Shown piece by piece: positions 1 to 16,266 of a stretch of DNA of 17,535 bases. The position numbers were made by a program, and so were the translations under genes. How positions within the stretch are numbered: position 1 is the first letter of the stretch; every line of letters begins with the position of its first letter. The stretch comes from Paludibacter sp. GTDB taxonomy: Bacteria; Bacteroidota; Bacteroidia; Bacteroidales; Paludibacteraceae. The notes under the pieces were generated by a model that was not told where the DNA came from, did not search any database, and was given only the letters and a program-made list of their open reading frames with translations. The stretch covers positions 1 through 17,535 of the forward strand of contig JAQTOL010000013.1 in assembly GCA_028748945.1 (NCBI GenBank), read 5' to 3'.

Positions 1-1
1 G

Positions 2-1675: not shown

Positions 1676-1694
1676 CCCCTAACCCCTAAAGGGG
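1676..1694. repeat. REP-like palindromic element, left arm of pair 1
   Basis: CCCCTAACCCCTAAAGGGG, starting on the base after the GH31 stop codon. It consists of a short palindrome (CCCCTAAAGGGG) preceded by a CCCCTAA tail. It is identical to the copy at 4611-4629 and is partnered in inverted orientation by 1769-1790. It might act as a weak 3' hairpin for the GH31 transcript, but there is no T-run. Confidence 0.85.
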
Positions 1695-1734
1695 ATTAAG
1701 AGAAATTACCATAGATAATTTAAAAATGAAATGA

Positions 1735-2850
1735 ATGAAAAACAAAGAAAACAATAGTAATATTAGCTCCCCCTTTAGGGGGTTGGGGGGCAATTGGAAA
1801 TCAAATTTTGAAGAAACGAAAAAGCATTACACCGATTGGTGGAATGGAAAAGGAATCGTGTTGACTATGTGGGAGCATCTTTATAAAGAAGGTGCTCCTT
1901 ATGAAGATATTTTAGCACCTCCGGTACATAAGGACATGAATCAGTTTTGGTTCGATCCGCAATGGCGTGCTGAATATTTGCATTATACCATGTCGAGAAA
2001 TTCGTATCTGGCAGATATTTTACCGGTTGCCAACACGCAACTTGGACCGGGTTCGCTGGCATCAGTGCTTGGGGCTGAACTGGAAGGTAGAGAGGATACT
2101 ATCTGGATTCGGGAAAAAGAAGGTTTCGATGGTCAGATTATTTTCGATGAAAGTAATAAATGGTGGAAACTGCATAAGGACCTGCTGAACGCATGTAAGG
2201 CCAAATCGCAGGGAAATTATATGATTGGTTGCCCGGATTTGGTGGAAGGATTAGATGTGTTGGCCAGTCTGAAAGGTTCGGATAATGTACTGATGGATTT
2301 GATTATGGATCCTGATAATACTTTACAACAATTGCAGGAAATCAATGATGTATATTTCAACGTGTTCAATGAAATTTACGATATTATTAATGTAAACGGC
2401 GAAATGGCATTTTGCTATTTCTCGCTCTGGGCACCGGGCAAAGTTTCGAAGTTGCAGGTCGATTTGTCTATTATGATTTCGGAAGAAGATTATCGCACGT
2501 TTTGTTTACCATTCTTGCGGGAGCAAACCGAAAAAATTGATTATACCCTTTATCATCTCGATGGTGTGGATGCCATTCGTCATTTGGATGCAGTTTTGGA
2601 ACTTAAAAAGCTAAATGCTGTTCAGTGGACACCGGGTTACGGACAACCTCAGGGTGGAAATGCGCAATGGTATGGTTTGTATAAGAAAATTCTTTCAGAA
2701 GGAAAATCGGTCATGGCCAACTGGGTGACGTTGGATGAACTTGAACCATTGCTTGATAATGTGGGTAATCAGGGTTTACACATTAATGTCGATTTCAAAT
2801 CGGAAAAAGAAATTGAACAGGCGTTGAAAATAGTTGACCGCTATCGGTAG
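1735..2850 (+). CDS. URO-D superfamily protein, 'trimethylamine corrinoid protein 2'-like
   Basis: A 371-residue protein resembling a Bacteroidota family of distant uroporphyrinogen-decarboxylase homologues, sometimes named trimethylamine corrinoid protein 2; that name is not evidence of trimethylamine use. The family-like sequence starts at about residue 21 (WKSNFEETKKHYTDWW). A late TIM-barrel strand carries YHLDG (Tyr273, His274, Asp276), followed by VQWTPG. The His-X-Cys zinc motif of MtaA/MtbA methyltransferases is replaced by His-X-Asp, so zinc-thiolate chemistry is doubtful. Possible roles are binding a methylated substrate or a methyl-transfer subunit. The first 20 residues are partly encoded by a palindromic repeat (1769-1790). 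Earlier ATGs at 1726 and 1731 do not lead into this frame (the 1726 frame stops at once), so 1735 is the only upstream ATG start. Cytoplasmic; no signal peptide. Confidence 0.8.
   Translation: MKNKENNSNISSPFRGLGGNWKSNFEETKKHYTDWWNGKGIVLTMWEHLYKEGAPYEDILAPPVHKDMNQFWFDPQWRAEYLHYTMSRNSYLADILPVANTQLGPGSLASVLGAELEGREDTIWIREKEGFDGQIIFDESNKWWKLHKDLLNACKAKSQGNYMIGCPDLVEGLDVLASLKGSDNVLMDLIMDPDNTLQQLQEINDVYFNVFNEIYDIINVNGEMAFCYFSLWAPGKVSKLQVDLSIMISEEDYRTFCLPFLREQTEKIDYTLYHLDGVDAIRHLDAVLELKKLNAVQWTPGYGQPQGGNAQWYGLYKKILSEGKSVMANWVTLDELEPLLDNVGNQGLHINVDFKSEKEIEQALKIVDRYR
1769..1790. repeat. REP-like palindromic element, right arm of pair 1, inside a CDS
   Basis: A variant of the reverse-orientation element: C5-TTTA-G5 palindrome, then TT and a run of six G. 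It is roughly the reverse complement of 1676-1694, with longer C and G runs. It lies in frame within the 5' end of the URO-D-like gene and contributes residues around SPFRGLGG. The tail ends four bases before an in-frame TGG (1795-1797), the spot where the other copies have ATG. Confidence 0.85.
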
Positions 2851-2860
2851 TAGCTCTGCA

Positions 2861-2968
2861 GATATTTGCTCCCATTGGTCGCGATATTCGGACTTCGTCC
2901 GTTATTTGCCTTTCGGGCGATATTTACTTCCATTGCTAGCGACATAGGGACATTGTCCGACATTTTTA
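2861..2968. repeat. Tandem 58-bp composite of GATAT-type short hairpin repeats
   Basis: The gap between the URO-D-like gene and the SSS gene holds units of 22, 18 and 18 nt (2861-2882, 2883-2900, 2901-2918), followed by a diverged second copy (2919-2940, 2941-2958, and a partial unit from 2959). Most units start GATATT, GTTATT or GACAT. Several contain small hairpins: CGGAC-TTC-GTCCG at 2889-2901 and GGAC-ATT-GTCC at 2948-2958 occupy equivalent positions in the two copies and keep base pairing despite different bases. Related units occur at 11604-11640. I see no promoter or CDS here. Confidence 0.75.
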
Positions 2969-3018
2969 TATTTTAAAAAAACAGTATTATAAACCAATAA
3001 TCTAATTTAATGCACTTT

Positions 3019-3048
3019 CCCTCTCCTTTGGAGAGGGTTAGGGAGAGG
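3019..3048. repeat. CT/GA-rich palindromic element with tail next to a start codon
   Basis: A perfect 8-bp stem (CCCTCTCC, loop TTT, GGAGAGGG; 3019-3037) followed by the tail TTAGGGAGAGG. It has the same head-plus-tail layout as the C4/G4 elements but a different sequence. The tail ends exactly 4 nt before the ATG of the SSS transporter and supplies a Shine-Dalgarno-like GGGAGAGG. Only one arm is seen in this gap. Confidence 0.85.
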
Positions 3049-3052
3049 TCTT

Positions 3053-4606
3053 ATGAAAGAATTAATTCACTTATCTACTTTAGATATTGCAGTAGTTGTC
3101 ATCTATATTGTTGTTCTACTTGGAATTGCCTATTGGGCAAGTTTCAGTAAAAAAAACAAGAGTGACAATCTTTTTACCGCCAATAAGAGTTTGGGTTGGT
3201 TTGCCATTGGACTTACCATGTGGGGAACCAATGTCGGACCATCGATGCTTATTGCCAATGCCAGTAGTGGTTACGAAAGCGGAATTGTGGCCGGAAATTT
3301 TTCATGGTACGCATTTCCGTTTATATTAATGTTGGCTTTTGTTTTTGCACCTAGATATCTGGGGGCGCAGGTAATGACCTTGCCCGAATACATGGGCAAA
3401 CGATTTGGCGATAAAACCCGCCGTTATCTTGCCTGGTACAGCATTATTACCATTTTGATTTCATGGTTGGGACTGACGCTTTTCTCTGGGGGTGTTTTTA
3501 TGTCTCAAATACTGGACATTCCGTTGTCAGTCAGTATTATAATACTTGTTTTGATTTCGGCAGCATTTGTCATTGCCGGAGGATTAAAAGCCATTGCTTA
3601 TACCAATGTTTTTCAAATGCTTTTGCTCATTGGCGTTTCCATTTTATTAGTAGTAATGGCAGTAATTAAAGTTGGTGGAATTTCCGAAATAATCAGTGCT
3701 ACACCTGTTAGTTACTGGAAAATGTTTCAGCCGCTTGACGATCCGAATTTTCCCTGGCTGGCTATCGTGATTGGTTATCCTATTATGGGGGTGTGGTTTT
3801 GGTGTACCGATCAATCGATGGTGCAATCGGTACTTGGTGCTAAGGATTTAAAAAATGGTCAAATGGGTGCGAATTTCGTAGCCTGGCTCAAATTGATTGA
3901 TATTCCGTTATTTATGATTCCCGGTGTTTTGGCATTTATCTTACTTCCAAAATTAGGCAACTCAACCGATGCCTACCTTAAACTCGTTGAAACGGTATTT
4001 CCTTCAGGATTAATAGGTTTAGTGATTGTAGTCATGATGGCTGCCCTGATTAGTACTGTCGGTTCGGCTCTGAATTCGTTGAGTGCCGTTTTCACCATGG
4101 ATATTTATATTAAGCAGTTTAAACCGGCTGCAACCAACAAAGAAATTACGTTGATTGGTCGTATTGTTGTTTTAGCCGGAGCTTTACTTTCCATTTTTCT
4201 GGCTATTGGAATTACTTATATTCAGGGATTGAGTTTTTTCAATATTTTTCAATCGGTACTCGGGTTTATCGCACCTCCTATGTCGGTTGCCTTCTTATTC
4301 GCCGTACTATGGAAAAAAACTTCACATAAAGCCATCAATTCTGTACTGACTTTAGGTACGATTTTTAGTATAGGGACAGGGATTTTGTTTTACAATAAAT
4401 TGATATTTAATGGACTGCATTTTCTTTATGTCTCATTTATCATTTTTGTAATACTGGGTATCTATGTTTTTGTTTATTCTTTGATTGATAAAAAATCAAT
4501 ACATACAGAGATAGACTATAAACCGATTAAAATTGATCGCAGCGTAAAAATTGCGTGGATTGTTTTGATTATTTTGATGATAGGATTGTATTTGTTTTTT
4601 AATTAA
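3053..4606 (+). CDS. SSS family sodium/solute symporter (SGLT-like)
   Basis: A 517-residue inner-membrane carrier of the sodium:solute symporter family, length normal, with about 13-14 hydrophobic segments. The first starts near residue 10 and the last ends at the C-terminus. Two family hallmarks are visible: the TM2-TM3 region (MWGTNVGPSMLIANASSG, about residues 56-73) and the signature MAALISTVGSALNSLSA followed by FTMDIY (around residues 330-350), which in SGLT homologues contributes to the second sodium site. It probably imports a monosaccharide or small glycoside by sodium coupling. The gene sits between two URO-D family genes, downstream of GH31 and upstream of RhaM. Start ATG 3053 is preceded by a repeat-derived GGGAGAGG with a 4-nt spacer. 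The actual substrate cannot be read from sequence. Confidence 0.93.
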   Translation: MKELIHLSTLDIAVVVIYIVVLLGIAYWASFSKKNKSDNLFTANKSLGWFAIGLTMWGTNVGPSMLIANASSGYESGIVAGNFSWYAFPFILMLAFVFAPRYLGAQVMTLPEYMGKRFGDKTRRYLAWYSIITILISWLGLTLFSGGVFMSQILDIPLSVSIIILVLISAAFVIAGGLKAIAYTNVFQMLLLIGVSILLVVMAVIKVGGISEIISATPVSYWKMFQPLDDPNFPWLAIVIGYPIMGVWFWCTDQSMVQSVLGAKDLKNGQMGANFVAWLKLIDIPLFMIPGVLAFILLPKLGNSTDAYLKLVETVFPSGLIGLVIVVMMAALISTVGSALNSLSAVFTMDIYIKQFKPAATNKEITLIGRIVVLAGALLSIFLAIGITYIQGLSFFNIFQSVLGFIAPPMSVAFLFAVLWKKTSHKAINSVLTLGTIFSIGTGILFYNKLIFNGLHFLYVSFIIFVILGIYVFVYSLIDKKSIHTEIDYKPIKIDRSVKIAWIVLIILMIGLYLFFN

Positions 4607-4610
4607 AAGA

Positions 4611-4629
4611 CCCCTAACCCCTAAAGGGG
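4611..4629. repeat. REP-like palindromic element, left arm of pair 2
   Basis: CCCCTAACCCCTAAAGGGG, identical to 1676-1694, four bases after the SSS stop codon. It is the exact reverse complement of 4749-4767, so the two arms could form a perfect 19-bp stem around a 119-nt loop (4630-4748). That loop contains a smaller hairpin (4663-4670 with 4684-4691, one mismatch). Confidence 0.9.
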
Positions 4630-4748
4630 AATATGAAAAAGACCTCAGTCCGTTTGACAAAGTTCACCTCGAAGCTTAATGGGGAGGCGAAAATGTGATT
4701 TAAAATTTGATATAATGGAAAAAATAGTAAACAATAGTAATCTTTGTT

Positions 4749-4767
4749 CCCCTTTAGGGGTTAGGGG
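4749..4767. repeat. REP-like palindromic element, right arm of pair 2
   Basis: CCCCTTTAGGGGTTAGGGG, a perfect inverted copy of 4611-4629. The tail GGGG is followed by TAAT and then the ATG (4772) of the URO-D methyltransferase gene, placing the G-run where a ribosome binding site would be. Confidence 0.9.
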
Positions 4768-4771
4768 TAAT

Positions 4772-5812
4772 ATGACTCACAAAGAACGTTTTTTAGCAAC
4801 AATAGCGAACCAACCGGTCGATCGTCCGGCTTCGTGGTTGGGATTGCCTGTGCCTGCTGCTGTCCCGGGATTACTGAAGTATTTCAAGGTTAATTCCATA
4901 GATGAACTGAAAATAAAACTCGACGATGATATTTACCCGATTGAAGTTCCATACAATTTTCCGCCTTCAAACCATATTGCCTGTGCTTTTAAATTTGCAA
5001 AAACGTCGCATGATGATAAACCTGATGAACGAACATTGACAGCACCCGGCTTTTTCGAGGATATTGACGATCCGGCTTTGGTTGAAACTTTCCCGTGGCC
5101 CGATCCGGCTTTGTACCTCGATGTGGAAGAATCAAGGCGATTAGCTCAAACTATTGATCCAAATTATGTGAGAATGGGAGTGATGTGGAGTGCGCATTTT
5201 CAGGATGCCTGTGCGGCCTTCGGAATGGAAAAAGCATTGATGGTCATGCTTATAAATCCGGATATGTTTCAGGCAGTGATTGATCGGATTACTGATTTCT
5301 ACCTGAAAGCAAACGAGCTTTTCTACGAAGCAACAAAAGGTTATCTTGATGCCGTTTTAATTGGAAATGACTTTGGGAGCCAGAATGGTTTGATGGTTGA
5401 TCCGGATTCTTTGCGAGCCTATGTTTTTTCAGGAACAAAGAAACTGATTGATCAGGCTAAAAGTTATGGTTTAAAGGTGATTCATCATTCGTGCGGGTCC
5501 ATTTATCCGATTATTCAGGATTTGATCGATTTGGGAGTAGATTCCATTCATCCGATACAAGCTCTGGCTGCCGAAATGGACGCACCAAATTTGAAATCAG
5601 GATTTGCAGGTAAAACATCTTTTTGCGGAGGTGTGGACGCACAACATTTACTGGTAAATGGTAATCCGGAACAAATTGCTGATAAAGTAAATGAATTAAA
5701 ACTGTTATTTCCCACCGGATTAATTATTTCACCCAGTCACGAAGCTATTTTACCGGATATTCCACCGGCAAATGTAGAGGCTATGTTTGCGGCATTAAAT
5801 GGAAAATTGTAA
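4772..5812 (+). CDS. URO-D family methyltransferase-like protein
   Basis: A 346-residue uroporphyrinogen-decarboxylase family protein of the corrinoid-methyltransferase type rather than true HemE. It starts with the usual MTHKERFLATIANQPVDRP, which is why ATG 4772 is preferred over in-frame ATGs at 4679 and 4715; those would add a repeat-encoded extension. Likely metal ligands are His239 and Cys241 (HHSCG), with His323 in SPSH where MtaA/MtbA proteins usually have Cys. The segment FCGGVDAQHLL and a C-terminal DIPPANVEAMFAAL are typical of sugar-locus URO-D proteins. Predicted role: methyl transfer to or from a corrinoid protein such as the one encoded at 11755-12426, or from an O-methylated substrate. 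It is followed after 20 nt by rhaM, so the two are probably cotranscribed. Cytoplasmic. Confidence 0.88.
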   Translation: MTHKERFLATIANQPVDRPASWLGLPVPAAVPGLLKYFKVNSIDELKIKLDDDIYPIEVPYNFPPSNHIACAFKFAKTSHDDKPDERTLTAPGFFEDIDDPALVETFPWPDPALYLDVEESRRLAQTIDPNYVRMGVMWSAHFQDACAAFGMEKALMVMLINPDMFQAVIDRITDFYLKANELFYEATKGYLDAVLIGNDFGSQNGLMVDPDSLRAYVFSGTKKLIDQAKSYGLKVIHHSCGSIYPIIQDLIDLGVDSIHPIQALAAEMDAPNLKSGFAGKTSFCGGVDAQHLLVNGNPEQIADKVNELKLLFPTGLIISPSHEAILPDIPPANVEAMFAALNGKL

Positions 5813-5832
5813 ATGAATAAATAGTAAAGAAT

Positions 5833-6156
5833 ATGAAGCGATTTGGACAAATAATTCACCTGAAACCTGATAGTGCAGACGAATACGTGAAACAGCACGC
5901 TGCTGTGTGGCCCGGAGTTTTGAAAATGATAAATGATTGTAATATAAAGAATTATTCAATTTACAAAAAAGACAATGTACTTTTTTCCTATTTTGAATAT
6001 GTTGGTGATGATTTTGAAAGCGATATGTCAAAAATGGCGGCAGATGAAGAGACCCGGCGTTGGTGGGATGTGGTAAAACCATTGATGCAACCGATTGAGA
6101 ACCGTAATATCGGAGAGTTTTGGGCGGATATGGAAGAAATTTTTCATTTAGATTAA
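5833..6156 (+). CDS. rhaM: L-rhamnose mutarotase family protein
   Basis: A 107-residue protein of the RhaM family (E. coli RhaM is 104), which interconverts alpha and beta pyranose anomers of L-rhamnose. The conserved residues fall at the E. coli positions: Tyr18, His22 (general acid/base) in YVKQHAAVWP, and Tyr41; the aromatic pair Trp77-Trp78 (RRWWDVVKP) and the FSYFEY strand are also present. It is a single dimeric ferredoxin-like domain without a signal peptide, hence cytoplasmic. It lies 20 nt behind the URO-D gene, so the imported sugar is likely L-rhamnose, a related 6-deoxysugar, or a methylated derivative. No rhaA, rhaB or rhaD is in the window. Family members also act on other sugars, so the substrate is inferred. 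Confidence 0.92.
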   Translation: MKRFGQIIHLKPDSADEYVKQHAAVWPGVLKMINDCNIKNYSIYKKDNVLFSYFEYVGDDFESDMSKMAADEETRRWWDVVKPLMQPIENRNIGEFWADMEEIFHLD

Positions 6157-6253
6157 ATATAAACGATATGAGTTTTGATATTCAACAATGATAATTAGTT
6201 AATTGAGGAAAAATTAAAATGCAAGTGTTATTATAAAATTCAAATAAATATTG

Positions 6254-6261
6254 TAATTTTG
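6254..6261 (+). promoter_or_regulatory. Candidate -7 promoter element for the DUF362 gene
   Basis: TAATTTTG matches the Bacteroidota -7 consensus TAnnTTTG exactly. No good TTTG is seen about 20 nt upstream, so the call is weak. Transcription would begin near 6268, leaving a leader of about 45 nt before ATG 6314; this argues against the in-frame TTG at 6275 as the start. Confidence 0.35.
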
Positions 6262-6313
6262 ATCAAATTATTCATTGAAAAAAAGCGATATTCACTTTTT
6301 AAAAATAAAACTT

Positions 6314-8281
6314 ATGACAACCTTTAAAAACTATTTTAAAAACGTGAAACTTTTAAAATGGCCGGCACTTGCAATTAGCTTGCTCGCCTTATTTGCGATG
6401 GATATGGCTTTCACCGGAAAACAAACCGTTGTAGATGGTTCATATAGAAATGATTCGCTATTTACTGCTGCACCAGCACCTGCAACTTCGGTTGCTGTGA
6501 TTGCATCAGATAATGTGAATTTGACAAACCCTGTTTCGGTGACATCAACATCTCTGACTTTTATTCAAATAAAAGATATGGTCAGAAAATCCATCAATTT
6601 GGTTGGTGGTATTTCCAAATTTGTTCACAATGGAGATTCTGTAATTATAAAACCAAATATAGTGGGTGCCAAGCTAACTGGAGATGGTGAAAATACAGAT
6701 ATACGGGTGGTAAAAGCTATTATTAAACTTATTTACGAACAATATGGAAATGGTTGTACTATCTTTATTGGAGAGGGTTCTGCCCGTAGTACGGCTCAAA
6801 TGGGTGGAGTACTTTGGAAGGCAGCTGGATATCAGGATTTATCTACAGATACTGATTTAACAGGAATAAATTTTCAACTGCTCGATTTAAATGATGAAGC
6901 TGCCGGAGGGGTTAATCTGATTTATAAAAAAACAACAAATAGTCTTGCTATTGATCAGGGTGGAAGTTACTGGATTCATAAATATTTGGTCTCACCAAAT
7001 GTAAAATATATTGATGTTCCTGTGTTGAAAATGCATGAACCGGGAATGACAAATTGTTTAAAAAACCAAATCGGAATTGCAGCTGGCTATAGATATGGTT
7101 TTAATAAAATGGCCGGTGGGGCAGGAGGTTATAAACTCATTCATCATGGTCATTTTACTGCAGCTTATAACTGGAAGTCATGGCAGGATGAGGAATTAAC
7201 CGATTTATCCAGTTGTATTGATCGTTTTGATTTATGTGTTGTAGATGCATTGTTATGTTTGGAAAGTCAAAAAACGACCATGTCCGGAGGCTCAAATCAG
7301 GTAAGACTAAATACCATTATTGCCGGACCGGACCCTGTTGCCGTAGATCATGTTTGTGCCAGAATAATTGGTTCAAACCCGGATGATATAGCTTTTCTAA
7401 CAATGGCAACAAAAATAGGTTTAGGTACAAACGACCCGGATAGTATCACTATTTTAGGAGAGAATATTAAAACTAAATACACGCATCGTTTTGATCGTGG
7501 AAGTACTGTTCATGCCACTTATGGCCAGGGTAACCGTGTTTGGTTAATTTCTCCTGCCTTTCCTTATACAACAATGGCTAATCAATATATAGCAAATGAA
7601 GCTAAATTGGCACCGTCGAAAGGAGATCCCGGATGGTCCGCCCCAATTTATTTCTTCGATGATAGAATTGATTTAGCAAGTTTTCTTAAGCCTGCAAGTA
7701 GTGTTGTTACATATTGTTATACAAATGTATACTCGCCAAAAGCTACATCGGGATCAGAACTCTGGCTAAATTCAGAAGAGCAGATGATTGTTTATTTAAA
7801 CGGTGTTCAGGTGTATAATTACAACGGTGTAGCCAGACCAAACGGAAATTTAGTAACTGACAAACCACTTATTAATTTATTGAAAGGAGAAAATACATTA
7901 CTTGTAAAAGTGCTTCAGACAACCGGTTGCTATGATTTTGCTTTAAATATATGCGAATCCGGTACAATGGGTAACAGAGTAGATGGATTAAAATTTTATA
8001 TAAAGAATTACAATGTTCCTGCTCCTTTGCTCTCTACAACAACTCTAATCAAAAATATTTCTTTTCATACTGATAAGCTTCGCATTTTGCAAACAACAAC
8101 CCAATTAACTGTTGAGAATGAAGATGTAACAGAAATTACTCTATACAATATGAATGGAGTTATACTAGCCGGAACTAAAGAAAAAAGTATAAATATCAGC
8201 AATTTGAAATCAGGTATTTATATAATATCGGCTAAGTTAAATAATAGTTCTGTTTTAAGTAAGAAGTTTTTAAAACAATAA
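6314..8281 (+). CDS. Secreted DUF362 domain protein with type IX sorting domain
   Basis: A 655-residue protein counted from ATG 6314; the open frame extends to TTG 6275, but that lies almost on the predicted transcription start. Order of parts: a basic N-terminus and hydrophobic export segment (about 14-35); a DUF362 domain (about 85-400) with KPNIVG near 112, GEGSAR near 152, HEPGMTNCLKNQIGI near 240 and GPDPVAVD near 337; a beta-rich, jelly-roll-like segment (about 460-560); and a C-terminal type A sorting domain (about 590-655: ITLYNMNG, ISNLKSGIYII, KKFLKQ). It is predicted to reach the periplasm by Sec, cross the outer membrane by T9SS and be released or anchored at the surface. DUF362 has no firm function; it is often an iron-sulphur-associated domain, and no ferredoxin cluster motif is evident here. 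Confidence 0.88.
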   Translation: MTTFKNYFKNVKLLKWPALAISLLALFAMDMAFTGKQTVVDGSYRNDSLFTAAPAPATSVAVIASDNVNLTNPVSVTSTSLTFIQIKDMVRKSINLVGGISKFVHNGDSVIIKPNIVGAKLTGDGENTDIRVVKAIIKLIYEQYGNGCTIFIGEGSARSTAQMGGVLWKAAGYQDLSTDTDLTGINFQLLDLNDEAAGGVNLIYKKTTNSLAIDQGGSYWIHKYLVSPNVKYIDVPVLKMHEPGMTNCLKNQIGIAAGYRYGFNKMAGGAGGYKLIHHGHFTAAYNWKSWQDEELTDLSSCIDRFDLCVVDALLCLESQKTTMSGGSNQVRLNTIIAGPDPVAVDHVCARIIGSNPDDIAFLTMATKIGLGTNDPDSITILGENIKTKYTHRFDRGSTVHATYGQGNRVWLISPAFPYTTMANQYIANEAKLAPSKGDPGWSAPIYFFDDRIDLASFLKPASSVVTYCYTNVYSPKATSGSELWLNSEEQMIVYLNGVQVYNYNGVARPNGNLVTDKPLINLLKGENTLLVKVLQTTGCYDFALNICESGTMGNRVDGLKFYIKNYNVPAPLLSTTTLIKNISFHTDKLRILQTTTQLTVENEDVTEITLYNMNGVILAGTKEKSINISNLKSGIYIISAKLNNSSVLSKKFLKQ

Positions 8282-8282
8282 G

Positions 8283-8312
8283 CTCAGAGTTTTATATTTT
8301 TAAAATCTTGAG
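8283..8312 (+). terminator. Weak hairpin after the DUF362 gene
   Basis: Two 12-nt arms (8283-8294 and 8301-8312) pair with one mismatch and two G-U pairs around a 6-nt loop. It sits directly behind the TAA but lacks a proper T-run, so termination is only possible, not shown. Confidence 0.25.
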
Positions 8313-8497
8313 ATAACAGAATTTTATTCTTTAGTCGGAAAAATAACAAACGGGCAGAAGAAATATATTTTTATTTTCTTGATAATGTTTCTCATTGCAT
8401 TTTAATAAATTGTATTTGATTAGCCCTGAATTTGCAGTATAGCATTTCATATCAGATAAAAAACATCCCAATATTTAAAAAGACTTAGTTCGTTGAA

Positions 8498-9418: not shown

Positions 9419-9478
9419 GTCTTTTATTACTAATCTTTTTTATACAGTAATTTATCTTTTTTCGTAGTAAATAAAATA

Positions 9479-10462: not shown

Positions 10463-10470
10463 TAGACTTC

Positions 10471-10532
10471 TTACAATTTATAATTATAAATAATGAGTGT
10501 AACATCTTTTATAATATGTGGTTAGCTTAACC
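10471..10532 (+). promoter_or_regulatory. Two palindromes upstream of rhaT
   Basis: A perfect 16-bp palindrome, ATTTATAATTATAAAT (10476-10491), is flanked by TTACA (10471-10475) and TGTAA (10498-10502), giving a larger imperfect inverted repeat. A second, GGTTA-GCT-TAACC (10520-10532), ends 11 nt before the rhaT ATG. Either could be an operator or a weak 3' hairpin for the LamG gene; AT richness makes chance possible. Confidence 0.35.
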
Positions 10533-10543
10533 TGATTAATGAC

Positions 10544-11602
10544 ATGATAAATTCTAATCCTTTACTTGGGACATTTTTTCACGCGGTTGGTGGTGCTTCG
10601 GCTTCAACCTGTTATTTGCCCAGTCAGAAAACCAAACAATGGTCGTGGGGAACATTCTGGTTGGTTCAGTCGGCTTTTGCCTGGCTGATTATGCCATTGG
10701 TGGTGGGATATTTCACCGTACCTGATTTTTTCGATATTCTGAAAAATGCTCCTTCCAAAGCATTCTGGGCTGCTTTTTTGCTGGGGGGTGTGTATGGATT
10801 TGGTGGAATGTCATTCGGATTTGCCATTCAGAACATCGGCTATTCACTAACGTATTCCATCAGTATCGGACTTTCAGCAATACTTGGAACCATGACGCCT
10901 TTGATCCTTCGTGGTCAGGTAATTGAATATTTCAATCGTCCCGGAAGCACGATTGTTCTTATTGGAATGATCGTGGCAGTTGCCGGAATCATATTTATTG
11001 GTTTGGCCGGTTTTAAAAAAGAAAAGGATTTGGGCGAATTGAAAAACTCCGTTCATTTCAAAATGAAAATAGGTTTGACATTGGCAATTATTGCAGGATT
11101 CCTTTCAGCAGTTTTTAATATTTCTCTCGAAGCCGGACAACCGATTTCGGATATTGCAGCACAACACGGTGCCGGTGAATTTGAAGGAAATGCAAAACTG
11201 ATTGTTTCTACTGCCGGATGTTTTGTGGTAAATCTGATATGGTTTCTGATTGCCGGAATAAAAGACAAATCGCTGAATGAATTCACTAAAGCAAGCGGCA
11301 TTCCATTTAGTCAGCGGTTTAAAAATACCTTGTGGTCGGCATTGGCAGGAACTCTTTGGTGTGGACAATTCTTCTTTTATGGATTGGGACATGTTCGGAT
11401 GGGTAATTTCCAGTTTATCAGCTGGGTCTTGCATATGACGATGTTAATATTCTTTAGTTACGGAGTCGGGCTATTAATGAAAGAGTGGAAACAGGTTTCG
11501 AAACGAACCTACATCATTTTGATATTTGCCCTGGTACTTTTATTCGCTTCATCCGTCATTATATCTTACGGCAGTTATTACGGGGAACAAATGATGCATT
11601 AA
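10544..11602 (+). CDS. rhaT: L-rhamnose/proton symporter RhaT family
   Basis: A 352-residue inner-membrane transporter close in length to E. coli RhaT (344), with about ten hydrophobic segments of the drug/metabolite-transporter fold. The N-terminus aligns well by eye: FFHAVGGASASTCYLP, then KQWSWGTFW, matching the FWHLIGAASAACFYAP and KKWSWETMW regions of RhaT; the TM3-TM4 region (GGMSFGFAIQNIGYSLTYSI) also fits. It imports L-rhamnose, or a related 6-deoxysugar, with protons. Together with RhaM at 5833 it supports rhamnose-type substrates for the locus, though catabolic rha genes are not visible. It is followed by a repeat array and then the corrinoid cassette. ATG 10544 is the first sensible start. 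Confidence 0.9.
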   Translation: MINSNPLLGTFFHAVGGASASTCYLPSQKTKQWSWGTFWLVQSAFAWLIMPLVVGYFTVPDFFDILKNAPSKAFWAAFLLGGVYGFGGMSFGFAIQNIGYSLTYSISIGLSAILGTMTPLILRGQVIEYFNRPGSTIVLIGMIVAVAGIIFIGLAGFKKEKDLGELKNSVHFKMKIGLTLAIIAGFLSAVFNISLEAGQPISDIAAQHGAGEFEGNAKLIVSTAGCFVVNLIWFLIAGIKDKSLNEFTKASGIPFSQRFKNTLWSALAGTLWCGQFFFYGLGHVRMGNFQFISWVLHMTMLIFFSYGVGLLMKEWKQVSKRTYIILIFALVLLFASSVIISYGSYYGEQMMH

Positions 11603-11603
11603 A

Positions 11604-11751
11604 GATATTCACTTCGTTGATATTACTCCCTTCGGTCACTGATATGATAAATCGGTTTGATGATTTAATATCAGTGAAACTAATATCACAAAGTCATATC
11701 ATGAAATCATATCACGAAGTCATATCATAAAATCATATCATAAAATAATAA
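11604..11751. repeat. Intergenic array: GATAT/CTTCG units plus five 13-bp tandem repeats
   Basis: Units at 11604-11618 and 11619-11640 (GATATTCACTTCGTT and a 22-nt relative containing CTCCCTTCGGTC) resemble those at 2861-2940. TCACTGATAT (11637-11646) is inverted at 11669-11678. Then follow five contiguous 13-nt units from 11687 to 11751, consensus CAYRAARTCATAT, the last diverged, ending 3 nt before the corrinoid-protein ATG. These 13-mers read in reverse complement (ATATGACTTCGTG) resemble the forward unit. I find no cobalamin riboswitch (no B12-box-like segment) and no clear promoter. Confidence 0.75.
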
Positions 11752-11754
11752 AAT

Positions 11755-12426
11755 ATGAATCAGGAATTATTAGAGAAACTATCCGAATGTGTTGAATTCG
11801 GCAAAATCAATCTGGCATCGCCTTACCCTCCTCAAATGAAAGGACTTCCGGGAGCAGATGAAATTACGAAGGAGGCATTGGAAGCAGGAGTTACACCAAC
11901 TGAGATTTTGAACGATGCCTTAATTACTGCCATGAACAAAGTGGGTCAGAAATTCAGTGAAAACAAAATATTTGTTCCTCAAATGTTATTGTCAGCCAAA
12001 GCCATGAGTGCTTCGATGATGCATCTAAAACCTTTCTTTGCCAATGGTTCGGTCAAACGTAAAGGAACTTTTATTCTTGGAACGGTTTACGGTGATTTGC
12101 ACGATATTGGCAAAAATCTATTCGGAATGATGGTGGAAGGCGCCGGCTGGGAAGTCATTGATTTGGGTATTGATGTGAAAATTGAAAAATTTGTGGAAGC
12201 GGTGCTGCAAAACCCGCATGCAGTTGTAGGGATTTCAGCTTTGTTGACAACGACCATGGTTCATATGAAACCGGTCATCGATGCCATTCGTATTGCTGTT
12301 CCGGAAACTAAAATCATTGTTGGCGGAGCCCCACTTTCTGCAGAATTTGCATCATCGATCGGAGCTGATGGATACGGTAAGAATCCACAGGAAGGCATTA
12401 TGTGGTTGGATAAAATTTCAGCTTAA
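11755..12426 (+). CDS. Corrinoid-binding methyltransferase protein (MtaC/MtbC-like)
   Basis: A 223-residue cobalamin-binding methyl carrier with the normal two-domain layout: an N-terminal helical cap (about 1-90, with MLLSAKAMSASM) and a C-terminal Rossmann B12 domain (about 100-223). The lower axial ligand motif DxHxxG is YGDLHDIGKNL with His116; the matching Ser161 (GISALL) and Gly190-Gly191 (IIVGGAP) complete the base-off signature shared with MetH. It shuttles a methyl group between a substrate-specific methyltransferase and an acceptor enzyme. Its stop overlaps the next start by one base (TAATG), so translation is probably coupled to the zinc methyltransferase. The methyl source is unknown; no MtaB- or MttB-type gene is in the window, so URO-D family proteins are the candidates. 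Confidence 0.95.
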   Translation: MNQELLEKLSECVEFGKINLASPYPPQMKGLPGADEITKEALEAGVTPTEILNDALITAMNKVGQKFSENKIFVPQMLLSAKAMSASMMHLKPFFANGSVKRKGTFILGTVYGDLHDIGKNLFGMMVEGAGWEVIDLGIDVKIEKFVEAVLQNPHAVVGISALLTTTMVHMKPVIDAIRIAVPETKIIVGGAPLSAEFASSIGADGYGKNPQEGIMWLDKISA

Positions 12427-13430
12427 TGAAACTTTTTTTTGATCAAATTCTACAAAGCTCAAAGGTTCTTCCTTTACCTATAATGACACATCCGGGCATC
12501 GAAGCTCTTGGTAAAAGTGTGCGTGATGCCGTAACAGATGGAATGACACAGTATCAGGCAATAAAATATCTATCTGATAATTTTGATACAATTGCTTGTA
12601 CAACTATTATGGATTTGACGGTAGAAGCGGAAGCTTTCGGAGCAAAAATTAATTTCCCGGAACATGAAGTCCCTTCTGTATCCGAACGATTAGTTGTTGA
12701 TTTAGAGTCAGTAGAATTACTTGAAGTTCCTTCATTAGAAAAAGGCCGGATACCACAATTTCTGTTAGCAAACAAACTTTCTGCAGAAAATATAAAAAAT
12801 AAACCTGTTTTTTCAGGATGTATAGGTCCGTTTTCTTTAGCCGGCCGATTGTACGATATGTCCGAAATAATGGTGGCCATTTACATTGAACCTGAGATAG
12901 TACTTCAACTTCTATCGAAATGTACAGAATTTTTAGTGAATTATTGTAAAGCACTAAAAGCAACCGGGACTGCTGGAGTAATTATTGCCGAACCGGCTGC
13001 AGGACTTCTGTCTGATGATGATTGTCTGGAATATTCTTCAAATTTTGTAAAACAAATAGTTGATTCAGTGCAGGATGAAACATTTACAATAATTCTGCAT
13101 AATTGTGGAAATACCGGACATTGTACCAATGCTATGATAGCAAGTGGTGCTAAGGCATTACATTTTGGTAATGCCATTAATATGGAAGATGTTTTGAAAC
13201 AATGTCCAAAGGATAAAGTCGTGATGGGAAATCTGAATCCGGTTGGAGTTTTTAAGCAGGGAACAAGAGAATCCGTCCGAAAAGCAACCCGTAAATTGTT
13301 GGAGGAAACAGCTGGTTATCCTAATTTCGTTATTTCCAGTGGGTGTGATTTACCTCCTTTTGTGCCCGAAGAAAATATAAATACATTTTTAGAAACAGTT
13401 GAAGAGTTTAATTCCAAACAGTATACTTAA
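12426..13430 (+). CDS. MtaA/MtbA-type zinc methyltransferase (URO-D family)
   Basis: A 334-residue TIM-barrel protein of the URO-D superfamily with a complete MtaA/MtbA-like zinc site: His225 and Cys227 in LHNCGNTGH, and Cys307 in SSGCDLPP. In methanogens these enzymes move methyl groups from methyl-corrinoid to coenzyme M; in bacteria, relatives with the same site demethylate or methylate other compounds, with zinc activating a thiolate or polarising the substrate. The 1-nt overlaps with the corrinoid protein upstream and the activation protein downstream make the corrinoid protein its likely partner. Acceptor is unknown: homocysteine, another thiol, or the reverse reaction from a methylated substrate are all possible. 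Cytoplasmic, no signal peptide. A second URO-D protein (4772) has His in place of the last Cys. Confidence 0.92.
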   Translation: MKLFFDQILQSSKVLPLPIMTHPGIEALGKSVRDAVTDGMTQYQAIKYLSDNFDTIACTTIMDLTVEAEAFGAKINFPEHEVPSVSERLVVDLESVELLEVPSLEKGRIPQFLLANKLSAENIKNKPVFSGCIGPFSLAGRLYDMSEIMVAIYIEPEIVLQLLSKCTEFLVNYCKALKATGTAGVIIAEPAAGLLSDDDCLEYSSNFVKQIVDSVQDETFTIILHNCGNTGHCTNAMIASGAKALHFGNAINMEDVLKQCPKDKVVMGNLNPVGVFKQGTRESVRKATRKLLEETAGYPNFVISSGCDLPPFVPEENINTFLETVEEFNSKQYT

Positions 13431-14125
13431 TGAGCTTTCAATCCTTTCATTTTACTTTCGCCGAAGTTGCACCGACATTCAACGAAATACTTGATTTTCT
13501 CAAATCGTCCGATTTGGAAGATGAGCATCCTGCTGTAGTTTTTATCCGGGATATTTTGAGCGAACTGAACTTTGATGCCGGAATTTCAGGTGGTTACATT
13601 CTGAAAAGAATTGAGAGTTTGAATGTAAAGAAAGGAATAATCAAAATTGAAAATCAGGAATTGAATCTTGGCCGTCAAGTGTGTGGTTATATCAAAGAAG
13701 CAACTCAGATTGCACTTTTTCTTTGCACAGCCGGTGAAGATTTTACCCGGATGACAAACCAACTCAACGAACAAGGTGATATCATGGAAGCTTATATTCT
13801 CGATGCCATTGGTTCGTTGACTGTTGAAAAGGCGATGGATAGAATCCAGGAAAGTCTTAAAAATGAATTTGGCGGAAAGGGATTTAAAATCTCCAACCGT
13901 TACAGTCCGGGTTATTGCAACTGGTCGCTTTCAGACCAGAAAGCATTGTTTCATTTAATAGGTGAAAATCAAACGGGTATTACATTAAGCGATTCCTGCC
14001 TAATGACTCCCCGGAAATCCGTCAGCGGGATTATTGGCATTGGGGAGCATCTGAAACATCATGAATATGGATGCGTTATTTGTAATAATTCAACTTGTAT
14101 TTACCGGAAAATATTACATGAATAA
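13430..14125 (+). CDS. Stand-alone MetH activation-domain-like protein
   Basis: A 231-residue protein similar to the C-terminal reactivation domain of cobalamin-dependent methionine synthase. In MetH this domain binds S-adenosylmethionine and allows reductive methylation of inactive cob(II)alamin. The SAM-binding signature appears as R157-Y-S-P-G-Y-C-N-W (compare RxxPGYP), and a helix-rich DAIGSLTVEKAMD precedes it. The C-terminus carries a Cys cluster not found in MetH itself: Cys215, Cys218 and Cys223 (CVICNNSTC followed by IYR), perhaps with Cys nearer SDSCLMTP, which could bind a metal or iron-sulphur cluster. Its ATG overlaps the stop of the zinc methyltransferase by one base. Predicted role: reactivating the corrinoid protein of this cassette. 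An alternative is a part of a split methionine synthase. Confidence 0.88.
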   Translation: MSFQSFHFTFAEVAPTFNEILDFLKSSDLEDEHPAVVFIRDILSELNFDAGISGGYILKRIESLNVKKGIIKIENQELNLGRQVCGYIKEATQIALFLCTAGEDFTRMTNQLNEQGDIMEAYILDAIGSLTVEKAMDRIQESLKNEFGGKGFKISNRYSPGYCNWSLSDQKALFHLIGENQTGITLSDSCLMTPRKSVSGIIGIGEHLKHHEYGCVICNNSTCIYRKILHE

Positions 14126-14141
14126 TTTCTTCATTGTGATG

Positions 14142-14149
14142 TAATTTTG
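14142..14149 (+). promoter_or_regulatory. Candidate -7 element for the ORF6N gene
   Basis: TAATTTTG is an exact TAnnTTTG match, placed so that transcription would start about 35 nt before ATG 14190. The expected TTG near 14119-14122 is not evident, so confidence is low. Confidence 0.35.
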
Positions 14150-14189
14150 AAAATTCTTTGTATTTTTAATGCGTTAAAAATGAACTGCT

Positions 14190-14690
14190 ATGGAAATTCA
14201 AATTATTCAAAACAAGATTTACGAAATTCGTGGACTAAAAGTCATTCTAGACAAAGATCTGGCAGCACTTTATGAAGTAACAACAGGAAATCTAAATAAA
14301 GCAGTTAAGCGAAATGTTGACAGATTTCCATCTGATTTTATGTTTCAATTAACCAATGAAGAGTTTGATTTGATATTCCAAAATGGAACATCAAGTTGGG
14401 GAGGTACCCGAAAGCTTCCTTATGCATTCTCTGAACATGGTGTGGCAATGTTAGCAGGAATATTAAATAGCACAAAAGCTATTGAAATTAATATCGAAAT
14501 TGTACGGGCTTTTATCGCCCTTCGTCAGTTTGCACTCGGTTATGCTGAGTTAAATAAGAAACTTGAACAATTTATGTTGGATACCAATATGCAGTTTAAT
14601 GAAATTTATCAGGTACTTACCGAATTGGCCAGCCAAAATGAGCAAAATAAAAAACCGTTGAAACCAATCGGTTATTCAACTTACAAATAA
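14190..14690 (+). CDS. ORF6N-domain protein
   Basis: A 166-residue protein whose residues 5-90 match the ORF6N domain known from phage antirepressor/KilA-N-type proteins and also common on Bacteroidota chromosomes: IYEIRGLKVILDKDLAALYE, then LNKAVKRNVDRFPSDFMFQL, then the end motif YAFSEHGVAMLAGIL. The remainder (about 95-166) is helical and probably coiled-coil (RAFIALRQFA, LNKKLEQFM), suggesting oligomerisation, with a short basic tail. It likely binds DNA; its target is unknown. No integrase, phage structural gene or att repeat lies nearby, so I see no direct evidence of a prophage. It stands alone between the corrinoid cassette and the trp operon, and I see no strong terminator behind it. 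Confidence 0.88.
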   Translation: MEIQIIQNKIYEIRGLKVILDKDLAALYEVTTGNLNKAVKRNVDRFPSDFMFQLTNEEFDLIFQNGTSSWGGTRKLPYAFSEHGVAMLAGILNSTKAIEINIEIVRAFIALRQFALGYAELNKKLEQFMLDTNMQFNEIYQVLTELASQNEQNKKPLKPIGYSTYK

Positions 14691-14727
14691 TAAAACTTAC
14701 GTGAAAATATAAAAAATGAAATTTTTC

Positions 14728-14758
14728 TTGCTCAAATAAAATAAATTTATCATCTTTG
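14728..14758 (+). promoter_or_regulatory. trp operon promoter (Bacteroidota -33/-7 type)
   Basis: TTG at 14728-14730 is separated by 20 nt from CATCTTTG (14751-14758), close to the Bacteroidota pattern TTTG-N19-21-TAnnTTTG. Transcription would start near 14763, about 20 nt before the leader-peptide ATG. Confidence 0.65.
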
Positions 14759-14783
14759 CAGTCGAAAATAAAACAAAAAGAAA

Positions 14784-14846
14784 ATGAACTCAATTTTAAC
14801 GGTAAACAAATTTTGGTGGTGGCACTTACAGATTAGCAAATCGTGA
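14784..14846 (+). CDS. trpL: trp leader peptide (attenuation)
   Basis: A 20-codon reading frame ending in TGA, with three consecutive TGG codons at positions 11-13 (sequence around them NKFWWWHLQ). It lies about 20 nt behind a plausible promoter and 140 nt before trpB, with a strong terminator in between. Three tandem Trp codons in so short a frame directly upstream of a tryptophan operon is the hallmark of ribosome-mediated attenuation. Stalling at 14814-14822 under Trp shortage would leave bases 14840-14847 free to form the antiterminator. The start context is A-rich (AAAAAGAAA before ATG), usual for this phylum. Confidence 0.88.
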   Translation: MNSILTVNKFWWWHLQISKS

Positions 14847-14914
14847 GATGTAACACCTATGTTTATTGTCAAAAATAAATGATATAACAAAAAAGGCTTG
14901 TCGGAACTCACGAT
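14840..14914 (+). promoter_or_regulatory. Predicted trp antiterminator pairing
   Basis: ATCGTGAG (14840-14847), which spans the leader stop codon, is perfectly complementary to CTCACGAT (14907-14914), the loop and descending-arm base of the terminator. Pairing would disrupt the terminator. A ribosome at the stop codon would cover 14840-14847 and let the terminator form. A competing upstream hairpin is TTACA (14826-14830) with TGTAA (14849-14853), extended by GGTG (14818-14821) with CACC (14854-14857) after a 4-nt bulge. Confidence 0.7.
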
Positions 14915-14925
14915 AAGCCTTTTTT
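14889..14925 (+). terminator. trp attenuator: intrinsic terminator
   Basis: A strong hairpin: AAAAAAGGCTTGTCG (14889-14903), a 7-nt loop (14904-14910) and CGATAAGCC followed by a run of T (14911-14925). The stem has 15 pairs including one G-U at 14900, and the T-run starts inside the descending arm. It lies between the Trp-rich leader peptide and trpB. Confidence 0.9.
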
Positions 14926-14989
14926 ATTTACAATTTCGATTGTTTTCAAAAAAAATACACAAACTGATTAATTATTCAACTTCATAAAA

Positions 14990-16195
14990 ATGAGCTATCA
15001 AGCAGACGAAAACGGTTATTACGGTGAATTTGGAGGAGCCTATATCCCTGAAATCTTGCATGGGACGGTAGAACGCCTCAGGGAAGCGTATTTTGCGATT
15101 AAAGAAGATGCTACGTTCAAAACCGAGTATTATGATTTATTGAAAAACTATGTGGGACGTCCTTCTCCACTTTATTTTGCCAAACGCTTATCGGAAAGAT
15201 ACGGAACGAAGATTTATCTGAAACGTGAAGACCTGAATCACACCGGAGCTCACAAAATCAATAATGCGCTTGGTCAAATTCTGTTGGCAAAACGCATGGG
15301 TAAAACCCGGATTATTGCCGAAACAGGAGCGGGACAACATGGAGTGGCTACAGCTACTGCTTGTGCTTTGATGGGTCTGGAATGCATTGTTTTTATGGGC
15401 AAGACCGATGTTGAACGTCAGTTCCTGAACGTACAGAAAATGCGAATGCTGGGTGCAACCGTTGAACCGGTAATAAGCGGAAACTGCACATTGAAAGATG
15501 CTACCAATGAAGCTATTCGTTATTGGTGTTCGAATCCGGATTCATTTTATATAATCGGGTCCACGGTCGGACCTCATCCTTATCCAGATATGGTTGGATT
15601 TTTCCAATCAGTAATTAGTGAGGAAATTAAATGGCAATTACAGGAGCAAACCGGTCGTGATTATCCCGATTATCTGATGGCCTGTGTGGGTGGAGGAAGT
15701 AATGCCATGGGAACTTATTATCATTATTTAAATGATGAAAGAGTGAAGATTATTTCTGCTGAAGCCGGTGGGCTGGGAATTGATTCCGGAGAATCGGCTG
15801 CAACCATTCATTTAGGCACAACGGGTATCATTCACGGTGCAAAGACACTGTTGATGCAAGATGAGGATGGTCAGATTACCGAACCTTATTCTATTTCAGC
15901 CGGTTTGGATTATCCGGGAATTGGGCCTGCTCAGGCATTCTACGCTAAAATAGGTCGCACCAAAGTACATGCGATTAATGATGATGAAGCTTTGGATGCT
16001 GCTTTCGAACTGACAGGTTTGGAAGGAATCATTCCGGCTATTGAATCGGCTCACGCATTGGCACTTCTGAAAAAAGAAAAAGATACTTTCAAGCCTGAAG
16101 ATATAGTGGTTATTACTGTTTCTGGACGAGGTGATAAAGATATGGATACATATGTGAAGCATTTTAAATCACCCCTAAACCCTAAAGGGGAATAA
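14990..16195 (+). CDS. trpB: Tryptophan synthase beta subunit
   Basis: A 401-residue PLP enzyme joining indole and L-serine to form tryptophan, partner of TrpA. PLP lysine Lys89 lies in HTGAHKINNALGQ, catalytic Glu111 in AETGAGQHG, and the phosphate-binding GGGSNAMG is present; these match Lys87 and Glu109 of the Salmonella enzyme. ATG 14990 gives the usual N-terminus with YGEFGGAYIPE. Length is normal except for the last nine residues (KSPLNPKGE), which are encoded by a palindromic repeat at 16172-16190; the natural end is probably at KHF (residue 392). The gene follows the attenuator and precedes trpE, the order known from Bacteroides (trpB, E, G, D, C, F, A). Expression is predicted to fall when Trp-tRNA is abundant. 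Confidence 0.98.
   Translation: MSYQADENGYYGEFGGAYIPEILHGTVERLREAYFAIKEDATFKTEYYDLLKNYVGRPSPLYFAKRLSERYGTKIYLKREDLNHTGAHKINNALGQILLAKRMGKTRIIAETGAGQHGVATATACALMGLECIVFMGKTDVERQFLNVQKMRMLGATVEPVISGNCTLKDATNEAIRYWCSNPDSFYIIGSTVGPHPYPDMVGFFQSVISEEIKWQLQEQTGRDYPDYLMACVGGGSNAMGTYYHYLNDERVKIISAEAGGLGIDSGESAATIHLGTTGIIHGAKTLLMQDEDGQITEPYSISAGLDYPGIGPAQAFYAKIGRTKVHAINDDEALDAAFELTGLEGIIPAIESAHALALLKKEKDTFKPEDIVVITVSGRGDKDMDTYVKHFKSPLNPKGE
16172..16190. repeat. REP-like palindromic element, left arm of pair 3, overlapping trpB
   Basis: CCCCTAAACCCTAAAGGGG, one substitution from 1676-1694. It lies in the trpB reading frame just before the stop (16193-16195). It is partnered by 16245-16262 in inverted orientation. 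Confidence 0.88.
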
Positions 16196-16244
16196 GAGTG
16201 AAATATTTTAAGAATTTATTTTGTAAATAATAACTAATAAAAAT

Positions 16245-16262
16245 CCCCTTTAGGGGTTGGGG
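16245..16262. repeat. REP-like palindromic element, right arm of pair 3
   Basis: CCCCTTTAGGGGTTGGGG; the tail is followed by TCAT and then the trpE ATG (16267), the same 4-nt spacing as at 4767/4772 and 3048/3053. The 54 nt between the two arms are AT-rich with no gene. Confidence 0.88.
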
Positions 16263-16266
16263 TCAT

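Follow-up and report, generated by a model that had tools for sequence, protein, structure and literature searches.

Three inverted pairs of a short palindromic repeat, here called the C4/G4 element, lie in the window, a term we use for the whole 17,535-nt stretch of Paludibacter sp. DNA that was analyzed (assembly GCA_028748945.1, contig JAQTOL010000013.1, positions 1 to 17,535). Each arm of a pair is built from a stem, a TTTA loop, a stem, a short linker, and a second copy of the 3' stem arm, and carries a G-tail. As stated in a preliminary description of this DNA and confirmed by inspection of the sequence, the six arms form three inverted pairs at gaps between genes. Their tails point outward, and each pair is located between two co-directional genes. 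Pfam searches identify the flanking genes as a GH31 gene, an SSF transporter, a URO-D family gene, a PLP enzyme, and anthranilate synthase component I (trpE). We take the PLP enzyme next to pair 3 to be TrpB, judging from its position and from the relatives found. An Rfam search of the window yielded no match at gathering scores.

In every pair, the stop-side arm is on the reverse strand, and the spacer and start-side arm are on the forward strand. The C-run of the stop-side arm of pair 1 (1676 to 1694) is abutted by the TGA stop codon of the upstream GH31 gene (open reading frame, or ORF, ending at 1675). The A/T-rich spacer that follows (1695 to 1768) contains an ATG at 1735 that opens a 371-aa ORF (1735 to 2850), for which Pfam gave no match. 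The start-side arm (1769 to 1790) is located within this ORF, and the putative cassette ATG with its leader MKNKENNSNISSPFRGLGG (1735 to 1791, forward strand) is fused in frame to it. The corresponding start in a sister genome (G061), ATG-ACC-TGG-AAA-TCA, reads GGC-AAT-TGG-AAA-TCA in the source genome (G000). Pair 2 has its stop-side arm (4611 to 4629) 4 nt past the stop of the SSF gene (ORF end 4606), a spacer at 4630 to 4748, and a start-side arm (4749 to 4767) 4 nt ahead of ATG 4772 of the URO-D family gene, which also has an upstream in-frame ATG at 4715. In pair 3, trpB reads through the stop-side arm (16172 to 16190) before its TAA at 16193, and the arm encodes the C-terminal residues SPLNPKGE where element-free relatives end in KHFAK or KHFK. 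The spacer (16191 to 16244) and start-side arm (16245 to 16262) follow, the latter 4 nt ahead of ATG 16267 of trpE. These distances agree with the preliminary description, which had reported G-tails ending 4 nt ahead of ATG 4772 and ATG 16267 and a CT/GA element ending equally far ahead of ATG 3053. Its broader statement that the right-hand copies precede start codons holds at 4772 and 16267 and fails at 1769 to 1790, where the copy is part of a coding frame.

The repeat is abundant beyond the window. Searching the source genome (3.46 Mb; assembly 85% complete) for CCCCTTTAGGGGNNNGGGG with at most one mismatch returned 106 matches (51 forward and 55 reverse), and the reversed control returned none on either strand (0 + 0). 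At two or fewer mismatches, 118 copies resolve into 39 pairs and 40 single copies across the window and 56 other stretches of the source genome, one of which was chosen for its transposase gene. Exact copies occur in 30 of 35 other genomes of the genus and in 4 of 24 genomes from the order's other families. An order-wide sample gave matches in 34 of 393 genomes, counting the source genome, and no match was found in any of five genomes from other genera of the same family. The spacer between arms is A/T-rich and measures 36 to 158 nt in 96 of 100 pairs. Immediately outside the tail, T (72-74%) or C is favored and nothing else is preferred.

We then determined where the arms lie relative to genes, using exact CCCCTTNAGGGG cores with a G-tail (350 arms, or 338 after identical contexts were removed). 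The arms came from the source genome (98), the single-contig genome G016 (79), G061 (6), G002 (31 chosen for CTTCAG and 37 chosen for CTTTAG), and other CTTCAG-chosen genomes (43 and 44). Reading direction was assigned from a dicodon score over the 330 nt beyond the tail, a rule that favors arms close to genes because it requires a stop-free coding stretch there. By this measure, 138 arms face starts, 119 face stops, and 81 are undecided; fused starts (defined below) and stops within the arm were counted as distance 0. The null was a point placed uniformly in the element-free gaps of 27 stretches (527 kb); the chance of it lying no more than 25 nt from a given border is 14.2%, and the chance of it lying that close to both borders is 2.3%.

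Among decided arms, 236 of 257 are within 25 nt of a start or stop (77 of 81 in the source genome and 47 of 53 in G016). Even when all undecided arms are taken as misses, 236 of 338 (70%) are near a border, versus 14% under the null. Both flanks are this close in 57 of the 64 decided pairs (100 pairs in all), versus 2.3% under the null. Sixty of these 64 pairs separate co-directional genes, three are convergent, and one is divergent, compared to a co-directional background of 283 of 361 (p=0.003). Tails are as close to stop codons as to start codons, and 35 of the 119 stop-facing arms contain the stop codon. We also considered the left arm as a universal three-frame stop (TGA-CCCC-TAA-CCCC-TAA) and rejected this candidate, as all three frames are closed in just 17 of 119 stop-facing arms. 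The positional rule proposed in the preliminary description survives as a tie to gene borders that exceeds random intergenic placement, and not as a fixed 4-nt distance; the "4 nt before start" pattern is one part of this wider gene-border rule. Of 37 arms from other families (G198, G257, and G233), four were decided and two of those are within 25 nt of a stop. Placement at borders thus looks special to the genus, judged from few sampled genomes. In G198 (L378-L386), this hairpin is part of a unit whose spacer is conserved. The unit resembles a REPIN, a paired form of the repetitive extragenic palindromic (REP) sequence, and perhaps represents the ancestral form.

Many start-side arms lie within the reading frame of a gene. 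We call an arm fused when no in-frame ATG occurs within 25 nt after the tail and the frame is open back to an upstream ATG. By this definition, 48 of 138 start-facing arms (43 distinct ORFs) are fused, a number inflated by CTTCAG sampling; the source genome has 5 of 40 and G016 has 4 of 29. Examples include murI, murG, trpC, trpE, and the window ORF at 1735. As read from the sequences, the arm in these copies is within the ORF, and the spacer supplies a putative ATG and a leader of about 20 aa in place of the native N-terminus. The in-frame ATG nearest to position -61 is 52-65 nt ahead of the tail end in 35 of the 48 fused arms, and predicted leaders in front of unrelated proteins are alike, e.g., MNRENNIQDKTNSVPLQGLGV and MNNDKNIQDNSNSNSPLGVRG, the latter ahead of the indole-glycerol phosphate synthase of G016 (L281). 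A C/G-run arm is present upstream of the ATG in 29 of 37 fused copies with a leader of the usual length. The cassette ATG is not a fixed part of every arm, since an ATG at this place seldom precedes start-facing arms whose genes retain their own start. A GACAAAAGTAACTTAGTT-like motif (at most six mismatches) located just inside the arm is more frequent in start-facing arms (19 of 48 fused and 27 of 89 unfused) than in stop-facing arms (15 of 118), without being exclusive to the former.

Pfam matches were obtained for 19 of 20 fused ORFs scanned, so the repeat resides in open frames of conserved-domain proteins. The domain begins at profile position 1-2 only a few residues past the leader for IGPS (twice), PRAI, Glyco_transf_28, SBD_N, and Pyr_redox_2, and starts further in for others. 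In three MurI ORFs, each from a different genome, the leader is not followed by another in-frame ATG until codon 82-84. The MurI of L353 matches 23 solved glutamate racemases, with the alignment starting at residue 22-25 for 22 of them and at residue 13 for the last. A start at the ATG of codon 82-84 would remove the conserved N-terminal part.

The loop of the arm offers a further view of these frames. Its codon XAG is TAG in most arms. Among the 138 start-facing arms, it is a non-TAG codon in 29 of the 48 whose loop is in frame with the gene and in 20 of the 90 whose loop is not (odds ratio 0.19, p=1.3e-5). This test is retrospective because the choice of copies depended in part on X and not on phase. 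Among trpE sequences, the same test gave p=0.002 over 37 arms, which are related to one another. We interpret the signal as a frame that is apparently kept open, not as a peptide that is selected.

Some of these gaps were compared between species. We examined the trpE start at 30 loci, including that of the window, out of 43 genomes with a match. The native trpE ATG is kept at 15 loci, of which four have the element. It is lost at the other 15, all of which are open in frame to an upstream ATG located 66-126 nt ahead of the LADL motif, and 14 of which have a detected element. L117 is degenerate. Element-free trpB-trpE gaps are as short as 6, 2, and 1 nt (L090, L100, and L101), and trpE is preceded by another ORF in L098, L102, L111, and L114. 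The trpB-trpE gap turns over quickly, as judged from the several unrelated filler types that occupy it across species of one genus (L088-L117).

Eleven junctions were aligned between the source genome and its sister. At L036 and L050 324-450, the gap is wholly different while the flanking DNA is 89-93% identical, and at L050 324-450 the first codons of the gene are replaced as well. Thus, whole gaps have been swapped between sister species at some junctions with coding flanks that remain alike, as the alignments indicate. Junction 4606-4772 has other sequence in the sister. Pairs are present in both genomes at 1675-1789, 16171-16264, and L050 1745, with differing arms or spacers. The L034 and L043 junctions are conserved, and those at L037 and L050 3634 are partly different.

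We read the C4/G4 element as a REPIN-like repeat showing unusual gene-border behavior. The explanation that we favor, with somewhat better than even confidence, is a genus-wide repeat population in which pairs abut gene borders and donate starts and stops, and in which random spread would have been filtered by survival. At the sequence level, two inverted arms and an A/T-rich spacer fill the stop-to-start gap of nearly always co-directional genes, and some copies hold the stop codon within the stop-side arm. The start-side arm either ends just before the gene's ATG or occupies the site of the former native ATG; in the latter case, the ATG comes from the spacer, together with a leader about 20 aa long. 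In the mRNA, predicted pairing between the arms would close the spacer into a loop between two cistrons. Spread may have occurred through a single-strand transposase or recombination between copies, with placements lasting only if both adjacent ORFs remained readable. A cassette with its own stop or start would widen the survivable sites into the last and first codons. Finally, an arm directly before the ATG probably weakens initiation in a phylum that does not rely on Shine-Dalgarno (SD) sequences, and a start in the A-rich spacer would relieve this effect.

Many features of REPs and REPINs are shared, including a high-copy and mostly extragenic short palindrome (106 matches versus none for the control), inverted doublets that can fold (100 pairs), and a single-stranded tail beside the hairpin, as described in portions of earlier reports (PMC3116915, PMC3733652). 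The same portions mention co-directional or convergent placement, nearness to 3' ends, repeat-supplied stops, and N-terminal repeats for REPs elsewhere. However, the Paludibacter cassettes abut genes on both sides, have variable spacers, and carry a spacer ATG that appears to replace native starts. Their distribution (236 of 257 decided arms at borders) also departs from the random extragenic distribution of REPs. Furthermore, the GTAG or CGTC tag at the hairpin foot was not found, the foot and tail being of the TTA-GGGG type in the listed copies, and no transposase gene of the repeat's own was found beside the copies.

Genes for Y1 transposases are present in 40 of 48 genomes of the genus, and their matches track the exact-pattern copy number (Spearman 0.61 over 36 genomes, with genome size and kinship uncontrolled). 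The only Y1_Tnp match of the source genome (L031 / L087, C36) is adjoined by CCCGATAGCTATCGGG-type hairpins with a repeated half-arm. Portions of a study on the Bacteroidetes TnpA-Y1 subclass 2.6 (PMC6006769) describe atypical hairpins with copies elsewhere in the genome, which is a likeness within the same phylum; in the source genome, however, the hairpins flanking the Y1 gene are of the CCCGATAGCTATCGGG type and not C4/G4. Across the genus, a C4/G4-type element lies within approximately 1.5 kb of a Y1 gene at just 2 of 31 loci, and no cognate REP-associated tyrosine transposase (RAYT) gene flanked by the repeat was found at these loci or in the source assembly, which is 85% complete.

Several observations weigh against the explanation that we favor. 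The C4/G4 hairpins do not flank the one Y1 transposase gene of the source genome. Target duplication was not found among 100 pairs (six versus 3.7 shuffled for k=2, three versus 1.8 for k=3, and none longer), a result that also separates the cassettes from miniature inverted-repeat transposable elements. Transposition, and with it the mobility of the copies, is something that we infer. The frame test is not significant when restricted to the unenriched sets (TAG 14/non-TAG 3 versus 52/4, p=0.34), codon-position variation gives no signal of selection on the leader peptide, and translation from the cassette ATG is predicted from sequence. In addition, 81 of 338 arms are undecided under a rule biased toward arms near genes. 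Finally, survivorship alone fails to explain the scarcity of mid-gap copies in longer gaps.

In an alternative that we consider unlikely, a border-aimed process, either targeted insertion or replacement of entire stop-to-start gaps, places the cassettes instead of survival-filtered random insertion. The abutment of both flanks in 57 of 64 decided pairs, the whole-gap differences between sisters at L036 and L050 324-450, and the unrelated fillers in the trpB-trpE gap of other species would all be expected of such a process. Against it, target duplication is missing, the position outside the tail prefers merely T or C, and no cognate enzyme was found, with so few of the Y1 loci near an element. 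A related and bolder proposal, which is tentative and which we regard as possible without being probable, treats the repeat as portable gene punctuation. A gap-acting process would swap stop-to-start gaps for cassettes with a stop, an A-rich initiation region, an ATG, and a leader, such that MurI and MurG would begin with the same repeat-encoded peptide.

It is less likely that the pairs persist because they act as RNA elements in the separation or processing of two cistrons, in the manner of neisserial miniature insertion sequences (NEMIS) or intercistronic REPs, with their position a mere consequence. Of 60 co-directional pairs for which a fold was predicted, 59 have their two arms bound to each other (median -44 kcal/mol), and this pairing speaks for an RNA role, as does the preference for co-directional genes. 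However, any inverted pair of the repeat would fold likewise. Compensatory matching of the two arms was considered and rejected, since it exceeds permutation at the 0.05 level in only one of five sets (G002, P=0.01); two of the remaining four sets gave duplex-energy P values of 0.055 and 0.060. Moreover, the pair is missing at some of the same junctions in sister species. Three 5.4-kb stretches of G016 that include a 16S gene start (L249, L260, and L271) are each bracketed by tail-inward C4/G4 copies located approximately 180 nt ahead of the 16S start motif. This bracketing at three of three places would also fit an RNA element. Separately, the cassette was considered as a mobile promoter. The motif TAnnTTTG is oriented toward the start in 7 of 82 spacers versus 2.5 expected, and the reverse strand holds more (11); the signal is thus not clear, and this candidate was rejected.

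We consider it quite improbable that the fused starts are artefacts, with translation really starting at a non-ATG codon or further downstream, and with chance or misassembly accounting for a frame that is open across the arm. The leaders lack a codon-position signal, L095 has TTG at the native trpE start, and most of the genomes are draft assemblies, all of which would agree with an artefact. Such an origin is difficult to reconcile with the frame association (p=1.3e-5), with MurI ORFs whose next ATG is only at codon 82-84, with Pfam domains that begin right after the leader, and with the four fused arms of a single-contig genome. If cells do use the fused starts, a single repeat has rewritten both the N-termini and the translation signals of numerous unrelated genes within a genus. 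These genes would then offer natural replicates for studying SD-independent initiation and REP-like site choice, and gene calls in the genus would include repeat-encoded leaders.

The distances from tail to start codon do not support a strict 4-nt rule. Of the 40 start-facing arms of the source genome, five are fused and 35 belong to the class with a separate ATG past the tail. In this class, the distance is 2-6 nt for 12 arms (exactly 4 nt for five) and 7-25 nt for 19, and four are further away or lack an ATG. Apart from its four fused arms, G016 has five at 2-6 nt (three at exactly 4), 14 at 7-25 nt, and six further away. Overall, spacings to the gene's own ATG span 2 to about 60 nt, plus a few larger values, and a distance of exactly 4 nt is seen for 7 of 80 start-facing arms that are unreadable from an upstream ATG. 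Four nucleotides is the commonest spacing, yet there is no sharp peak, a result that the preliminary description had itself listed as a refutation of its rule in the strict form.

The context of these starts is unusual. For 22 own ATGs located 2-6 nt after the tail, positions -7 to -5 are 82-91% G, compared to 9-13% G in 256 control long ORFs, which are A-rich there. Cassette ATGs have the A-rich context usual for the genome. Portions of a study on Prevotella bryantii (PMC3155529) report that an added SD had no effect, that structure covering the SD region lowered expression five-fold, and that a hairpin at -21 was harmless, and portions of a Flavobacterium johnsoniae study (PMC6847099) report that structure and an A at -3 tune initiation. 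Given the G-rich context and these data, we expect an arm 4 nt before an ATG to be a handicap and not a ribosome-binding site, and the leader form may be an escape from it. The earlier proposal that the G-tail is a G-rich ribosome-binding site kept 4 nt before start codons can point to 4 nt as the most frequent distance (5 of 35 in the source genome) and is very hard to credit given that the constrained spacing expected of SD sequences is absent, that tails are equally placed at stops (119 stop-facing versus 138 start-facing arms), that the G-rich context is opposite to the A-rich norm, that fused arms are themselves within the reading frame, and that SD is described as without function and structure as harmful in P. 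bryantii.

Other known repeats share some of these features. Correia elements (including NEMIS and CREE) are likewise inverted repeats beside genes that form transcript hairpins, and the last A of one reported copy is the A of an ATG, as recounted in portions of PMC2649163 and PMC2229807. The elements described there differ in their conserved core, their frequent TA target sites, their promoters, and the RNase III data available for them, whereas Paludibacter spacers vary, show neither target duplication nor a clear promoter signal, and have pairing known from a predicted fold. Rickettsia palindromic elements (RPE) and enterobacterial RU elements are likewise translated within conserved proteins, and one RU-2-like case is located at an N-terminus (portions of PMC2229807 and PMC2759123). 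In-frame repeats of this kind are matched here at the sequence level by the 48 open start-facing arms and the Pfam matches in 19 of 20 ORFs. However, the RPE and RU cases in these portions are in-frame insertions or single-case fusions, whereas the Paludibacter cassette start appears to take the place of the native one in numerous unrelated genes across a single genus. In the open-licence literature, we recognized no report of the repeat in Paludibacter or of start donation, which is weak evidence of absence, and the sole match to exact core words of the repeat was unrelated (E. coli).

Additional repeats are present in the window. The single CT/GA element (3019 to 3048, forward strand), which indeed ends 4 nt ahead of ATG 3053 of the SSF transporter gene, had been called unrelated in sequence to the C4/G4 type. 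This description does not extend to its design, which is the same (stem, loop, stem, short linker, and second copy of the 3' stem arm). The genome has one match to it at two or fewer mismatches. The gap at this junction is longer in the source genome than in the sister. Repeats of the GATATTTGC...TCGCGATATT type at 2865-2970 occupy the gap preceding the CT/GA element, a gap that is much shorter in the sister, and similar filler is found at the trpE start of L104 and L110. An array of approximately 13-nt repeats (ATATCAYRAARTC-like) at 11678-11750 ends about 4 nt ahead of ATG 11755, and is another repeat type that reaches a start codon. Upstream of trpB, a short ORF at 14784-14846 (MNSILTVNKFWWWHLQISKS) has three consecutive Trp codons, and an inverted repeat and a T-run come after it near 14893-14926; judged by eye, this arrangement looks like a trp attenuator leader.

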